From Woeseia oceani (GTDB lineage: Bacteria > Pseudomonadota > Gammaproteobacteria > Steroidobacterales > Woeseiaceae): 64,000 bases of DNA. The stretch spans positions 1,415,001 to 1,479,000 of the forward strand of contig NZ_CP016268.1 in the NCBI RefSeq assembly GCF_001677435.1. The letters are read 5' to 3'. Below the pieces are notes generated by a model that was not told the DNA's origin, did no database searches, and saw only the letters and a list, made by a program, of their open reading frames with translations. Made by a program: the position numbers and the translations under genes. Below, piece by piece: positions 25,853 through 30,005 of this stretch. Every line of letters begins with the position of its first letter. Positions within the stretch are counted from its first letter, which is position 1.

Positions 25853-27160
25853 ATGACTGGCAAAGTCACCCCGCTAAAGCGCCCCAGCAATGTGCCGGCG
25901 AAGATTGGCAAGTACGTCATCATCAACAAGGTGGGGCAGGGTAGCACCGGGGTCGTCTATCTCTCGCATGACCCTTACTACCGCCGCGATGTTGCGATCA
26001 AGGTATACAACATCGAGGAAGATGCTGACGCCGATCGCGCGCGCGTTTCCCGCAAGATGTTCTTTAACGAAGCGCACATGGTTGGCATGTTGCAGCACCC
26101 GAACATCCTGCCAATCTACGATGCCGGCGAAGAAGACGGCAAATACTACGTAGTCACAGAACACATTCAGGGGGCACGCACGCTCTCCGCCTATTGCCGT
26201 CCCGATAACTTGCTGCGTGTCGACGATGTGGTAGAGATAGTCTACAAGTGCGCCAAAGCACTGCACTACGCGCACGGCCGCGGCGTTATTCATCGTGACA
26301 TCAAGCCAAGTAACATTATGCTGACGATCGACAACGACGTTCGCATCATCGATTTCGGCATTGCGATCTGCAACGACTCGGAAGTGTCGCGCATTGAAGG
26401 CATCGCCGGTTCACCCAGCTACATGTCGCCCGAACAAGTGCAGTCTGAAGAGCTGACATCCCGTTCGGACATTTACTCTCTCGGCGCGGTCTTGTACGAG
26501 CTGTTGACCGGGTTCCGCCCGTTCCGGGCAGACAACCTGTCGAAGTTACTGCACCAGATCGTTTACGCGACGCCGCCGCCGATACATACCTATCGCCCGG
26601 ATCTGCCTGAAGAGCTGGAAAATGTCGTCGCGATGACCATGCACAAAGAGGCAGCCAAACGTTGCGCGAGTGGCAATGCGCTCGCCGCGGATCTGACGCG
26701 CGTTTATCAGGACCTGCGAGCCAAGTACGACAGCCTCGACAATCAGGAACATTTTGATCTACTGCGTGCTTTGACATTCTTCCACGAGTTTTCTCACGCT
26801 GAAATCTGGGAAGTGCTGCGTGCCAGTGACTGGCATGAGTACAAGGACGAAGAAGACATCGTACGCGAAGGCGAGATGGACGATCGTTTCTATATCATTG
26901 TTGCCGGGCAGGCGTCAGTCGAAGCCAACCACAAGAAACTTGGGGTACTGGAGGCAGGCGATTGTTTCGGCGAAACCAGCTACGTGCGCGGTGCCAAGCG
27001 AACAGCTTCCATTCGAGCCACAGGCGCAGTGACAATATTGCGGGTCAGTTCGACCCTGATGGAGCAGGTATCGGCATCCTGCCAGCTACGCTTCAACAAG
27101 GTATTCCTACGCTCCCTGATCACCCGTTTGCAGGGTGATGGAAACGCCGAAACCTCCTGA
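25853..27160 (+). CDS. Hanks-type Ser/Thr protein kinase with C-terminal cyclic-nucleotide-binding domain
   Basis: A 435-residue soluble protein with no membrane segment. The kinase domain spans about residues 18-285 and looks complete: Gly-rich loop G-Q-G-S-T-G (28-33), Lys50, Glu74, H-R-D (147-149), Asn154, D-F-G (167-169), and S-P-E (192-194). The last 100 residues form a CNB/cAMP-binding-like domain with F-G-E-T-S and K-R-T-A-S-I, close to the phosphate-binding cassette F-G-E-x-x plus Arg. This suggests regulation by a cyclic nucleotide or allosterically, but binding is inferred. It begins 15 bases after pgpA, preceded by GGAAC, so it may be co-transcribed with the riboflavin run. Targets are unknown. 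Confidence 0.9.
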   Translation: MTGKVTPLKRPSNVPAKIGKYVIINKVGQGSTGVVYLSHDPYYRRDVAIKVYNIEEDADADRARVSRKMFFNEAHMVGMLQHPNILPIYDAGEEDGKYYVVTEHIQGARTLSAYCRPDNLLRVDDVVEIVYKCAKALHYAHGRGVIHRDIKPSNIMLTIDNDVRIIDFGIAICNDSEVSRIEGIAGSPSYMSPEQVQSEELTSRSDIYSLGAVLYELLTGFRPFRADNLSKLLHQIVYATPPPIHTYRPDLPEELENVVAMTMHKEAAKRCASGNALAADLTRVYQDLRAKYDSLDNQEHFDLLRALTFFHEFSHAEIWEVLRASDWHEYKDEEDIVREGEMDDRFYIIVAGQASVEANHKKLGVLEAGDCFGETSYVRGAKRTASIRATGAVTILRVSSTLMEQVSASCQLRFNKVFLRSLITRLQGDGNAETS

Positions 27161-27492: not shown

Positions 27493-27546
27493 TTGACAAC
27501 ATCCGTGCCCGCGCATAAAGTGAGTCTCCGATTAGACTTAGTCTAA
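27493..27546 (+). promoter_or_regulatory. Candidate rubrerythrin promoter with palindromic operator
   Basis: TTGACA (27493-27498) is a perfect -35 box. CATAAA (27514-27519), 15 bases later, is a possible -10 with 4 of 6 matches and tight spacing. A perfect 15-bp palindrome, TTAGACT-T-AGTCTAA (27532-27546), would then lie over the start of transcription, 36 bases before the ATG at 27583. That position suits a repressor. The binding factor is not identified; the palindrome resembles but does not match the GACT...AGTC half-sites of IscR-type sites. Confidence 0.6.
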
Positions 27547-27582
27547 ATTGTTTTGGTACGAGTACGTTGGAGAGGAACAATC

Positions 27583-28002
27583 ATGTCTTTGAAAGGCAGC
27601 AAAACCGAGGGCAACCTGAAAGAAGCGTTTGCCGGCGAATCACAGGCTAACCGCCGTTATCTGTACTTTGCAGCAAAAGCGGATGTCGAAGGTTACAACG
27701 ATGTCGCGGCCGTATTCCGCTCAACGGCAGAGGGTGAAACCGGGCATGCGCACGGTCATCTGGAATACCTTGAGGAAGTAGGTGACCCCGCTACGGGTCT
27801 GCCGATCGGTGCAACGGCCGACAACCTCAAATCAGCCATTGCCGGCGAAACGCACGAGTACACGGACATGTACCCGGGTATGGCGAAAGCCGCTCGCGAA
27901 GAAGATTTCGACGAAATCGCCGACTGGTTCGAGACACTGTCCAAAGCCGAGCGTTCGCACGCCAATCGCTTCCAGAAGGCACTGGACGCATTGGACGATT
28001 GA
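27583..28002 (+). CDS. Rubrerythrin-family diiron protein, rubredoxin domain absent
   Basis: A 139-residue ferritin-like four-helix protein. Diiron ligands are visible as E-S-Q-A-N-R-R-Y in helix 1, E-G-E-T-G-H (ExxH-type) in helix 2, E-T-H-E-Y in helix 3, and K-A-E-R-S-H in helix 4. The C-terminal Cys4 rubredoxin domain of classic rubrerythrin is missing, so electrons must come from another protein. Rubrerythrins reduce hydrogen peroxide. GGAGAGGAA lies upstream of ATG 27583, which supports that start over an upstream TTG at 27553. It heads a three-gene run with an Fe-S protein and DUF3501. Confidence 0.93.
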   Translation: MSLKGSKTEGNLKEAFAGESQANRRYLYFAAKADVEGYNDVAAVFRSTAEGETGHAHGHLEYLEEVGDPATGLPIGATADNLKSAIAGETHEYTDMYPGMAKAAREEDFDEIADWFETLSKAERSHANRFQKALDALDD

Positions 28003-28014
28003 TGTACTGGCCGT

Positions 28015-28039
28015 GACTGCCCGGTGTTGCCGGGCAGTC
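28015..28039 (+). terminator. Perfect 10-bp hairpin between rubrerythrin and Fe-S gene
   Basis: GACTGCCCGG (28015-28024) pairs perfectly with CCGGGCAGTC (28030-28039) around a 5-base loop, 12 bases after the rubrerythrin stop. Only TTT follows at a distance, so termination would be partial at most. A likely role is to let the first gene be expressed more than the downstream two, or to protect its mRNA. Confidence 0.6.
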
Positions 28040-28073
28040 CGGTTTCTGCGGCCGCCCGTTCTGGAATTTCCCT

Positions 28074-29417
28074 ATGAGTAACAACGGCGACAGGCGCGAG
28101 GGCAGTCTCGAAGCCCCGACGCGGCATCCGCTGGCCTGGCAAACGGACGAGTTCTACGACCAGCAGGCGCTGGATACAGAGCTCGAACGGGTTTTCGACA
28201 TCTGCCACGGTTGCCGGCGCTGTTTCAATCTGTGTAACGCTTTCCCAACTCTGTTTGATGCTATCGACGCCTCGGACAGCATGGAGGTGGATGGCGTCCC
28301 GAAGGAAGTCTATTGGGACGTCGTGGATAACTGCTATCTCTGCGACATGTGTTACATGAGCAAATGTCCGTACGTGCCGCCGCACGAATGGAACGTCGAT
28401 TTTCCGCACCTGATGTTGCGTGCCAAAGCCAGCCGTTTTCGTGAGCAGGGTGCAAGCAAGCGCGACCGCATACTCAGTTCCACTGACAAGGTAGGGCGAT
28501 TTGCCGGTATTCCTGTCGTTGTGCAGACGGTAAACGCCAGCGCACGTAACAAGACCGCGCGCAAATTGCTGGAGAAAACGCTCGGTGTGCATCATGCCGC
28601 GCCATTGCCCGCTTACCATTCGCGCACGGCCCGCAAACGTCTGAAATCGCATCTCGAAGTGAAAGGTGATTCCGCCATTGCCGCAGGGGAAACCACTGGC
28701 AAGGTGGTCCTGTTCACAACCTGTTACGGCAACCGCAATATGCCGGCTCTTGCCGAAGACCTGGTTGCCGTGTTCGAACACAACGGCATAGCCGTCGCGC
28801 TGGCCGAGCAGGAAGTTTGTTGTGGCATGCCCAAACTGGAGTTGGGTGACTTACAGGCAGTCGCGAAGGCGAAAGAGAAGAACATCCCGGTATTGGCCGA
28901 TTGGGTCGAACGCGGCTGGGATATCGTCACACCCATTCCGTCGTGCACGCTCATGTTCAAACAGGAGCTGCCACTTATGTACCCGGAAGACGATTCCGTC
29001 AGCAAAGTTCGCAATGCGATGTACGATCCTTTTGAGTACTTGATGCTGCGGCACAAGCACGGCCAGTTGAAAACCGACTTCAAGAATTCACTGGGAACGA
29101 TTGCCTACCAGGTCGCTTGCCATTTGCGGGTGCAGAATATTGGTCTGAAGACCCGCGATGTACTGGCGATGGCACCTGATACAGAAGTGCAGGCCATTGA
29201 GCGTTGTTCCGGCCACGACGGTACCTACGCTGTAAAAAAAGAGTTTCACGAAATCTCCAAGAAAATTGCCCGGCCAGTGGTCAATAAGGTCAAGAAGGCG
29301 GCGCCGCAGCACTTTGCCAGTGACTGTCCGATGGCGGCCGACCAAATTGCACAGAGTCTGGATGACAACAGTGCAGAGCATCCACTCGCTTTACTGCGCC
29401 AGGCTTACGGAATCTGA
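28074..29417 (+). CDS. Heterodisulfide reductase/GlpC-like iron-sulfur protein
   Basis: A 447-residue soluble Fe-S protein. Two [4Fe-4S] motifs are clear: Cys44-47-50-54 and Cys87-90-93-98 (the last followed by Pro). The C-terminal half holds two CCG-type domains, seen as T-T-C-Y-G-N with V-C-C-G-M-P and P-S-C-T-L-M, then V-A-C-H-L-R with C-S-G-H-D-G and S-D-C-P-M-A. The second resembles GlpC. It should carry electrons, possibly to the rubrerythrin encoded just before it. The gene trio rubrerythrin, this protein and DUF3501 recurs in many bacteria, yet its reaction is not established to my knowledge. It is cytoplasmic; no signal peptide is seen. Confidence 0.88.
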   Translation: MSNNGDRREGSLEAPTRHPLAWQTDEFYDQQALDTELERVFDICHGCRRCFNLCNAFPTLFDAIDASDSMEVDGVPKEVYWDVVDNCYLCDMCYMSKCPYVPPHEWNVDFPHLMLRAKASRFREQGASKRDRILSSTDKVGRFAGIPVVVQTVNASARNKTARKLLEKTLGVHHAAPLPAYHSRTARKRLKSHLEVKGDSAIAAGETTGKVVLFTTCYGNRNMPALAEDLVAVFEHNGIAVALAEQEVCCGMPKLELGDLQAVAKAKEKNIPVLADWVERGWDIVTPIPSCTLMFKQELPLMYPEDDSVSKVRNAMYDPFEYLMLRHKHGQLKTDFKNSLGTIAYQVACHLRVQNIGLKTRDVLAMAPDTEVQAIERCSGHDGTYAVKKEFHEISKKIARPVVNKVKKAAPQHFASDCPMAADQIAQSLDDNSAEHPLALLRQAYGI

Positions 29418-29420
29418 TTC

Positions 29421-30005
29421 ATGCAAAAGCTAAGCAAAGATCAACTGTACAGCCTTGAAAAATATGCTGAAGTTCGTCCGCAATTTCGCAACGAAGTACT
29501 CGCTCACAAGCGCAACCGTCGCCTGGAGCTTGGCACTAATGCGACTTTGTATTTCGAAGACCGCATCACCGTGCAGTATCAGATTCAGGAGATGCTGCGG
29601 ATCGAGCGCATATTTGAGGCGGCGGGTATCAATGAGGAACTGGATGCCTACAATCCTTTGATACCGGATGGCAGCAACTGGAAAGCGACCTTTATGATTG
29701 AGTTCCCCGATGTGGATGAGCGTCGGGCAATGTTGAAACAATTGATCGGCATCGAAAATCGGGTCTGGATGCAGATCGGAACGGGGGATTTGATTCGACC
29801 GATCGCCAACGAAGACTTGCCGCGTTCAACGGACGAGAAAACCTCGGCAGTGCATTTCATGCGTTTCGAGTTGTCAGCTGCCGATGTCGCTGGCCTGAAA
29901 GCCGGTGGCGAACTGGCTGCCGGGATCGATCATGAGAATTACCAGGTGGAGGTGCGGCCAGTGCCCGCCAACGTTCGGCAGTCATTGCTCAATGACCTCG
30001 CTTGA
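29421..30005 (+). CDS. DUF3501 family protein
   Basis: A 194-residue soluble protein, 3 bases after the Fe-S gene, so tightly coupled. It starts M-Q-K-L-S-K-D-Q-L and contains R-P-Q-F-R-N-E-V-L-A-H-K-R-N-R-R-L and F-E-D-R-I-T-V-Q-Y-Q-I-Q-E-M-L-R, the DUF3501 core. No Cys cluster is visible. A conserved His, Arg and acidic residues could form a site, but no function is known. It is the third member of the rubrerythrin trio. Confidence 0.85.
   Translation: MQKLSKDQLYSLEKYAEVRPQFRNEVLAHKRNRRLELGTNATLYFEDRITVQYQIQEMLRIERIFEAAGINEELDAYNPLIPDGSNWKATFMIEFPDVDERRAMLKQLIGIENRVWMQIGTGDLIRPIANEDLPRSTDEKTSAVHFMRFELSAADVAGLKAGGELAAGIDHENYQVEVRPVPANVRQSLLNDLA

Follow-up and report, generated by a model that had tools for sequence, protein, structure and literature searches.

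A 64,000-nucleotide stretch of Woeseia oceani DNA (from NZ_CP016268.1; hereafter the window) carries genes for a rubrerythrin, an Fe-S protein (RFO) and a DUF3501 protein in tight order. An earlier note described this order as one that occurs in other bacteria and suggested a peroxide or redox system of unknown reaction. What do the three proteins do together, and what controls them? The features of the locus, in window coordinates, are as follows.

27493..27521, + strand: sigma-70-like promoter TTGACA-17-TAAAGT, matching the consensus at 10 of 12 positions, immediately before the operator
27532..27546, no strand: operator TTAGACTTAGTCTAA, a perfect 7-1-7 palindrome conserved upstream of rbr, candidate site of an Irr/PerR-type Fur-family repressor
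27569..27576, + strand: probable ribosome-binding site GGAGAGGA of rbr, by direct sequence reading
27583..28002, + strand: rbr, aerobic-type (single-domain) rubrerythrin, 139 aa, from Pfam Rubrerythrin, structure matches and conserved ligands
28015..28039, + strand: hairpin with a 10-bp stem in the rbr-rfo spacer, conserved across spacers
28074..29417, + strand: rfo, HdrB/LutA/GlpC-like Fe-S protein, 447 aa, from CCG domain, fold and 15 conserved cysteines
29421..30005, + strand: DUF3501 protein, 194 aa, DUF3501 at 235.8 bits and a match to 3fjv

These coordinates confirm the position, order and spacing of the trio given earlier: the rfo stop codon ends at 29417 and DUF3501 starts at 29421, leaving a spacer of exactly 3 bases. 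The gene order, rightly noted there as occurring in other bacteria, is a published, named association (PMC5114695). The operator and the intergenic hairpin went unmentioned in the earlier note.

Conservation and identity of the three proteins

The trio is associated far beyond chance. All three genes occur in 114 of 274 genomes of the class, one or two in nine and none in 151; the full trio is thus present in 114 of the 123 genomes with at least one of the families. This clearly refutes the notion that the families rarely co-occur and rules out chance co-location. The order RBR-RFO-DUF3501 is kept in 92 of 100 fetched loci, contig ends cutting six of the other eight. Six fetched loci without rbr were rejected as real exceptions because all end at contig edges; rbr lies on another contig in four (G067, G240, G215, G110) and was not found elsewhere in G191 and G260. 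There were no natural RFO-DUF3501 fusions among the 98 loci in which both genes were read (window included) or among a further 70 loci read; a few long open frames occur in genomes beyond these loci, G202 for example. Such fusions are reported in Nitrosomonas (PMC5114695). In 14 of 101 and 13 of 80 loci, rfo and DUF3501 are separated by a gene for an EncFtn-like protein, which the window locus does not have.

The rubrerythrin matches Pfam Rubrerythrin with 102 bits and has no rubredoxin domain, since the protein contains no cysteine at all, which bears out its description as a diiron rubrerythrin lacking that domain. Seven residues that we take, by analogy with classical rubrerythrin, to be the diiron ligands (E19, E52, H55, E89, E92, E123 and H126) do not vary across an alignment of 95 sequences. 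Its matches to structures of Burkholderia pseudomallei rubrerythrin (E 1e-73) and to sulerythrin (E 3.5e-51) are stronger than that to the two-domain enzyme 1b71 (E 1.8e-27). By similarity ranking, the basis of the class assignment, it is closer to single-domain forms such as sulerythrin than to classical rubrerythrin. A classical rubrerythrin that recently lost its tail was considered and rejected, as among 24 solved relatives the best 15 have lengths of 140–169 residues, which makes them single-domain by length. Two rubredoxin-domain matches are present in the host genome.

RFO has 15 conserved cysteines in an alignment of 98 sequences, in which its motifs CxxCxxCxxxC (C44, C47, C50, C54) and CxxCxxCxxxxCP (C87, C90, C93, C98) are 99–100% conserved; a Fer4_8 match falls under the Pfam cut-off. 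One CCG domain (residues 211–296, 51.5 bits) lies above its Pfam cut-off, and a second unit is indicated by alignment of model residues 209 to ~450 with HdrB and LutA and by the conserved C349, C378 and C418. LutA, EtfD and HdrB were matched by the model fold at Z 19–24, with its two CCG units arranged as in HdrB and LutA (Z 19.2–23.9 over 226–238 residues against LutA and five entries of HdrB). The CCG consensus motif is CX31-39CCX35-36CXXC. Neither unit has it in full: the first has C217, C249, C250 and C291 with M294 in place of the last cysteine, and the second only C349, C378 and C418. The two [4Fe-4S] motifs and CCG domains noticed earlier therefore stand, one CCG domain through Pfam and the other through fold and cysteines. 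RFO as GlpC proper was rejected (230.7 bits against a cut-off of 278, and 152.3 against 279.9), and no GlpA- or GlpB-like open reading frame was recognised by eye between 22 and 36 kb of the window.

The DUF3501 protein matches 3fjv in sequence (E 2.2e-54) and in fold (Z 25.9). A control search detected the DUF3501 family in Sulfolobus acidocaldarius as well. Matches of this part of the model beyond 3fjv reach Z 6.7 at most, which is evidence neither of kinship nor of a new fold. Folded as a single sequence with no alignment, it gave a pLDDT of 36.9 and a pTM of 0.25. Of the three proteins whose complex the earlier note proposed to predict, the RFO-DUF3501 pair was modelled: the read-through model (pLDDT 89.8, pTM 0.81), a fusion through an artificial two-residue tether judged without interface scores, is compatible with docking of DUF3501 onto RFO.

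Probable peroxide reduction and proposed electron supply

By similarity ranking of its rubrerythrin and by the neighbouring rfo and DUF3501 genes, the trio belongs to the known aerobic-type rubrerythrin system, and we consider it probable that it works as a peroxide-scavenging unit. Activity and induction have been shown for homologues. A homologous single-domain rubrerythrin of Hydrogenobacter is a peroxidase required for aerobic growth (PMC3317640), the rubrerythrin/glpC cluster of S. solfataricus is up-regulated by H2O2 (PMC2739297), and bpss1837-1839 of B. pseudomallei are listed with its oxidative-stress genes (PMC4175613). Counting against this, one S. solfataricus rubrerythrin spot went up and two went down after H2O2 (PMC2739297). 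To call the reaction unknown is nevertheless too strong, because the homologue is a peroxidase and such clusters are reported to be oxidant-induced. The related statement that no function is established is only partly right: the Hydrogenobacter rubrerythrin, of this lineage, is a demonstrated peroxidase, while for RFO and DUF3501 we found no functional test in the literature examined.

We infer the following electron route. At its diiron site the rubrerythrin dimer would reduce both H2O2 and organic peroxides. RFO, which carries two [4Fe-4S] clusters as well as CCG units of the HdrB/LutA kind, would deliver the electrons, replacing the missing rubredoxin domain and drawing in turn on a reductase linked to quinol, ferredoxin or NAD(P)H. 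DUF3501 may bind RFO and present it to rubrerythrin, or may protect or assemble the metal site.

A different division of labour, somewhat unlikely in our judgement, would have the rubrerythrin fed by general carriers such as FNR or stand-alone rubredoxin, with RFO and DUF3501 doing a separate co-regulated job, for example repairing the diiron site or loading it, or removing a small molecule that has been oxidised. HdrB clusters act on disulfides, and the resemblance of the RFO CCG units to HdrB would suit such a job, just as the host's rubredoxin-domain matches would suit a general carrier. Genome G064 has rubrerythrin and DUF3501 with no match in the RFO search, and G032 has a rubrerythrin (80% identity) with no match to RFO or DUF3501. 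The Hydrogenobacter enzyme is active in vitro with NADPH and FNR alone, without RFO (PMC3317640), and Thermoproteales are reported to have RBR-DUF3501 without RFO (PMC5114695). These cases also counter the strict form of the self-contained electron path proposed in the earlier note, a path that PMC5114695 puts forward in much the same terms. Set against general carriers is the tight linkage of the two genes, which a general carrier would not need: among 118 genomes with aerobic-type rubrerythrin, 115 also have RFO, and of the 94 fetched loci that include rbr, 92 have rfo next to it. We favour RFO as the candidate donor to the diiron site.

A candidate operator and its putative regulator

The palindrome occurs upstream of rbr in 73 of 95 loci (window included; 0.65 in shuffles) and in 44 of 68 loci of a second set, whereas it was found in 0/95 and 0/68 loci downstream and 0/93 and 0/66 inside rfo. 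TTAGACTNAGTCTAA has a single perfect match in the whole genome, the operator site itself. In the host genome the box, with at most one mismatch, is rarer than its reversed control (3 against 32). Over 40 relatives the totals are similar, 70 boxes against 51 for the control; this count is not high, and it is the positions of the boxes that carry the evidence. Twenty-four of the 70 precede rbr, 17 ftsH, five katG, three msrP and one the regulator gene described below, and one lies, weakly, before a gene for a MauG/MbnH-type di-haem enzyme, 196 bases away. Nineteen have no assigned neighbour; in a family search, the box neighbour in L154 gave a rhodanese-like match under the cut-off and those in L167 and L195 gave none. 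The promoter match is weak alone, because two such sites occur in the region against 1.3 expected, yet its placement relative to the operator would fit repression. In the rbr-rfo spacer, a stem of at least eight perfect pairs is found in 56 of 92 loci against 2.2 expected in shuffles, with a mean folding z of -3.4 for these spacers.

A Fur-family Irr/PerR-like regulator accompanies 66 of the 73 box-bearing loci and four of the 22 box-less ones, counts that ignore kinship. In the host genome its gene lies at 2495346-2495756 on the minus strand. Its gene adjoins the trio in 4/101 and 7/80 loci; in L247 and L248, where it is adjacent, no box of at least 9/10 was found. In an ungapped alignment to 2fe3 the regulator keeps H34, D82, H88, H90 and D101, the five residues that bind the regulatory metal in B. 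subtilis PerR. It scores under the NCBIfam cut-offs for IrrA (128.3 against 150), Irr (118.8 against 170), PerRA (89.8 against 200), PerRB (65.2 against 250) and two further PerR families (53.9 against 180 and 32.8 against 200).

Membership of the trio, its co-occurrence, the operator with its links to the regulator and to other peroxide genes, and the hairpin are read from sequence comparison. On this basis a repressor that senses peroxide or iron appears to control the trio through a conserved DNA site, and the operator, together with the putatively co-regulated genes, firmly assigns the trio to defence against peroxide or iron stress. These peroxide-type genes and the peroxidase and induction data of homologues lend good support to the earlier reading as a peroxide or redox system. 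While the trio itself is known, this regulatory layer is probably unreported: the text of PMC5114695 mentions no regulator of the Irr/PerR kind (neither 'PerR' nor 'promoter' appears in it), and a literature search with several spellings of the box returned no papers.

For repression and stoichiometry we infer that a repressor of the Irr/PerR branch would bind TTAGACTTAGTCTAA at the transcript start and be released when peroxide inactivates it or, alternatively, on a shift in the iron/heme state. Rubrerythrin would be made in quantity, and the hairpin after rbr would hold the RFO-DUF3501 pair at a lower level.

Irr/PerR-type control and the ferritin-like fold would also suit a cluster whose main task is to oxidise iron, using peroxide for this, and to store or buffer it, a reading we regard as improbable. 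In its favour, Irr is an iron/heme regulator in alphaproteobacteria that binds the promoter of the rubrerythrin-like mbfA (PMC3413700), B. pseudomallei rubrerythrin is promiscuous for Mn, Co and Fe (PMC12585693), and the EncFtn-like gene is inserted in some loci. The window locus, however, has no such gene, the recognised box partners (katG, msrP, ftsH and the di-haem peroxidase-like enzyme) belong mostly to oxidant defence, and no bacterioferritin or heme-synthesis gene was recognised by eye beside the 70 boxes, 19 of them unassigned.

We also think it unlikely that a different regulator binds the palindrome and that shared ancestry explains its correlation with the Irr/PerR-like gene. The operator-regulator pairing comes from sequence counts that take no account of kinship, 11 of 95 loci are discordant (seven box-bearing without a detected regulator, four box-less with one), and the host's own regulator gene has no box in front. 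Pointing the other way, regulator and rbr are divergent neighbours in L229, L232, L261 and L271, and the G295 box precedes the regulator gene itself. A 7-1-7 geometry is expected for Fur-family dimers, and the operator has its core, TTAGA-N5-TCTAA, in common with Irr boxes.

Keeping the Irr/PerR-like repressor, we put forward a more specific proposal only tentatively, at less than even confidence. The gammaproteobacterial trio may be the core of an unreported Irr/PerR-like peroxide/iron regulon with ftsH, katG and msrP. RFO-DUF3501, as a tight complex scarcer than rubrerythrin because the hairpin throttles the operon, might serve as catalytic reductase for the diiron peroxidase pool, taking the part that a covalently attached rubredoxin plays in the anaerobic enzyme.

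Relation to known systems

The trio is common (114 of the 274 genomes) and has also been reported from mitochondria in several protist lineages (PMC7050145), yet two of its three proteins are without a functional test in the literature examined. A candidate repressor, a defined site on the DNA and a predicted pairing of RFO with DUF3501 can now be named.

The closest known system is the 'aerobic-type rubrerythrin - RFO - DUF3501' association of Cardenas, Quatrini and Holmes (2016; PMC5114695), with the same three families adjacent and a rubrerythrin without rubredoxin domain; GlpC is the closest among named families to its RFO, as here, and we noticed no difference in the proteins. The three-component system of Andalucia godoyi mitochondria (PMC7050145) likewise has all three proteins with a coherent distribution, but its genes are unlinked and the products are predicted to be mitochondria-targeted. 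Ferriperoxin (Fpx) of Hydrogenobacter thermophilus (PMC3317640) and sulerythrin are single-domain rubrerythrins of the same lineage as the window protein; peroxidase activity was measured for Fpx with NADPH-FNR as donor, whereas that of the window protein is predicted by analogy. RFO shares fold and cluster motifs with GlpC, LutA, HdrB and EtfD, differing in lying beside rubrerythrin and in scoring under the GlpC cut-offs; by eye, no GlpA/GlpB- or Hdr-like neighbour was recognised.

For control, the nearest parallels are the Irr-regulated mbfA and ccpA of Rhodobacter sphaeroides (PMC3413700), with a Fur-family repressor, a promoter-near palindrome and rubrerythrin-like or peroxidase targets, as proposed here, and the deltaproteobacterial classical rubrerythrin under predicted PerR control (PMC545781), likewise with a Fur-family repressor and palindrome. 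Both concern another class and another type of rubrerythrin, and the deltaproteobacterial PerR boxes (PMC545781, Table 7) do not resemble the window box. The candidate target set here, unlike that of the Irr and PerR cases, joins the trio with ftsH, katG and msrP.

The trio and its distribution

The window sits within a single contig of 4.06 Mb. The named sequences nearest to its DUF3501 protein include several assigned to Woeseiaceae or Woeseia, so the host probably belongs to this gammaproteobacterial family. Coordinates and family searches, the latter recovering rubrerythrin, one CCG domain and DUF3501, bear out the earlier note's claim of a trio of rubrerythrin, Fe-S protein and DUF3501 protein.

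Features at the window locus
27532-27546: operator TTAGACTTAGTCTAA, a perfect 7-1-7 palindrome, 36 bases 5′ of the rbr start codon
27583-30005, + strand: trio rbr-rfo-DUF3501 (139, 447 and 194 aa)
28015-28039: hairpin with a 10-bp stem, in the rbr-rfo spacer

The gene order, which the note had thought familiar from other bacteria, is indeed a published association. PMC5114695 defines an aerobic-type rubrerythrin lineage (RBR) with the Fe-S protein RFO and DUF3501, counts all three together in 185 genomes and already proposes that RFO makes up for the lost rubredoxin domain; the trio is also described in mitochondria (PMC7050145) and Acidihalobacter (PMC7760498). That the window trio belongs to this known system is virtually certain.

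The three families are common together. Among 274 genomes drawn from the host's class, DUF3501 was found in 119, RFO in 119 (E ≤ 1e-60) and aerobic-type rubrerythrin in 118 (at least 79% identity; matches at 46–54% identity were excluded from this count); 114 genomes had all three, nine had one or two and 151 had none. We fetched 100 loci out of the 118 other genomes with DUF3501, and 92 showed the order RBR-RFO-DUF3501 on one strand. Two had an RBR-DUF3501 arrangement, and the six without rbr each lay at a contig end. In one genome of the RBR-DUF3501 type (G088), RFO adjoins a second rbr on another contig; a search of the other (G064) found no RFO. At L104 (from G064), L272 and L284, RBR and DUF3501 are paired with no RFO gene alongside, which makes these loci natural tests of RFO as electron donor. 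A divergent RFO-like protein (G212:C76:15194-16480, 50% identity) occurs in a genome that has the regulator described below and gave no rubrerythrin or DUF3501 match. Directly 5′ of the window trio, positions 25853-27160 encode a Ser/Thr protein kinase whose C-terminal region, by eye, resembles a cyclic-nucleotide-binding domain.

Protein models and function

RBR lacks any cysteine, and its nearest structures by similarity ranking are those of the single-domain rubrerythrin of Burkholderia pseudomallei, and also sulerythrin. RFO has two conserved four-cysteine motifs and seven more conserved cysteines spread over two CCG-type units. Its top named models are GlpC, with scores below cut-off. In fold comparison the structure predicted for RFO aligns with LutA (Z 23.9, 2.1 Å over 226 residues), with EtfD (Z 22.1, 3.5 Å over 360 residues) and with HdrB (Z between 19.2 and 19.6). 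DUF3501 has a solved relative of unknown function, 3fjv (Z 25.9, 2.0 Å over 190 residues).

In the window, rfo and DUF3501 share a reading frame with just TGA and TTC between them, so a read-through fusion could be modelled (19 other paired and 64 unpaired alignment rows), giving pLDDT 89.8 and pTM 0.81. As RFO by itself accounts for 0.695 of the fused chain, a pTM above about 0.7 points to some confidence in how the two domains are positioned against each other, although the artificial tether weakens this. DUF3501 might tentatively be viewed as an adaptor on RFO.

The reaction, which the note had called unknown, is half known. The homologue ferriperoxin (Fpx) of Hydrogenobacter thermophilus is a peroxidase with NADPH-FNR, and its disruptant was unable to grow in air (PMC3317640). 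In Sulfolobus solfataricus a rubrerythrin cluster including the glpC-like SSO2643 (listed value 5.165) is described as up-regulated after H2O2, although rubrerythrin protein spots shifted in both directions (PMC2739297). An oxidative-stress gene table for B. pseudomallei gives 3.37 for bpss1837 (hypothetical), 3.31 for bpss1838 (ferredoxin) and 3.36 for bpss1839 (rubrerythrin) (PMC4175613); we infer that bpss1837 is the DUF3501 gene. The trio very probably serves peroxide defence, and the chances that RFO is the electron donor are about even.

Hairpin and EncFtn-like insertions

Across 92 loci, the window included, with rbr-rfo spacers of 45 to 280 bases, 56 spacers contain a perfect stem of at least eight pairs, against 2.2 expected, and the mean folding z is −3.4. 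Most are not typical terminators, since only 23 have a T-rich tail. By contrast, 49 of 98 loci have no more than 25 bases separating rfo from DUF3501. RBR output may thus exceed that of the rfo-DUF3501 pair.

At 14 of 101 loci a gene for an EncFtn-like protein (encapsulated ferritin) is inserted after rfo and ahead of DUF3501, and 13 of 80 loci of a named set also carry it, L253 being the exception with the gene 3′ of DUF3501. It may function without its shell, since encapsulin had no match in 10 of the 13 EncFtn-bearing genomes searched (G067 left out) and one copy has no recognisable targeting tail.

EncFtn-like genes at trio loci
L098, L111, L110, L068, L086, L077, L062, L075, L069, L053, L087, L044, L050, L103: insertion between rfo and DUF3501
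L235:4628-4933: copy ending without a recognisable targeting tail

Operator, candidate regulator and regulon

Immediately upstream of the operator is a promoter-like TTGACA-17-TAAAGT, and TTAGACTNAGTCTAA has a single perfect match genome-wide, at the operator. Scored as TTAGA-N5-TCTAA with 9 or 10 of 10 positions, the box precedes rbr in 73 of 95 loci, against 0.65 in shuffled sequences; these 95 are the window and 94 fetched loci, each holding rbr and 121 or more bases of sequence ahead of it. The box was found in 0/95 equal-length stretches 3′ of DUF3501 and 0/93 within rfo. The named set, which probably overlaps in part with this one, given that some contigs agree in length, gave 44 of 68 usable loci against 0.35 in shuffles.

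The host genome has three Fur-family matches. One, L003, ranks by score with Irr, IrrA and PerR, without reaching the cut-off of any model listed, and retains the five residues that align with the metal ligands of Bacillus subtilis PerR. Its homologues (E ≤ 1e-18) occur in 86/119 genomes with DUF3501 versus 24/155 without. Box and regulator coincide at 66 of the 95 loci, with neither at 18, the box alone at seven and the regulator alone at four (Fisher 2e-10, relatedness ignored). The regulator gene adjoins the trio in 4/101 loci and, in the named set, in 7/80, four divergent from rbr and two (L247, L248) without a good box. The stretch examined around the host's own regulator gene contains no box. 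Irr/PerR-type control of the trio by this candidate is likely.

The pattern TTAGAMNNNKTCTAA occurs 70 times over 40 relatives, host included, against 51 for the reversed control, and in 35 genomes. Rbr follows 24 sites, one per genome, and ftsH follows 17, within the rlmE-ftsH spacer.

Host ftsH box
G000:C1:2262475-2262489 (L006:1501-1515): rlmE-ftsH spacer

We know of no peroxide- or iron-linked Fur-family control of the FtsH protease. Among the remaining 29 sites, five precede catalase-peroxidase katG (L147 and L189 by family search; L159, L161 and L199 by translated starts) and three precede the methionine sulfoxide reductase subunit gene msrP (L193 by family search; L187 and L190 by their starts). 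In these last three, all of one genus, the box lies 17 bases upstream of the msrP start. One site (L166) precedes the Irr/PerR-like regulator gene itself. A weak case is L156, where 196 bases separate the site from a gene for a di-haem enzyme of the MauG/MbnH type. No gene was assigned to 19 of the 70, some of which fall inside genes.

Literature searches, in the text available, found no published link of the box or an Irr/PerR regulator to the aerobic-type trio. Rhodobacter Irr binds mbfA and ccpA (PMC3413700). Classical rubrerythrins are under predicted PerR control, with boxes that differ from the trio's (PMC545781). To the known system the analysis adds an operator with its candidate regulator, a small regulon and a hairpin.
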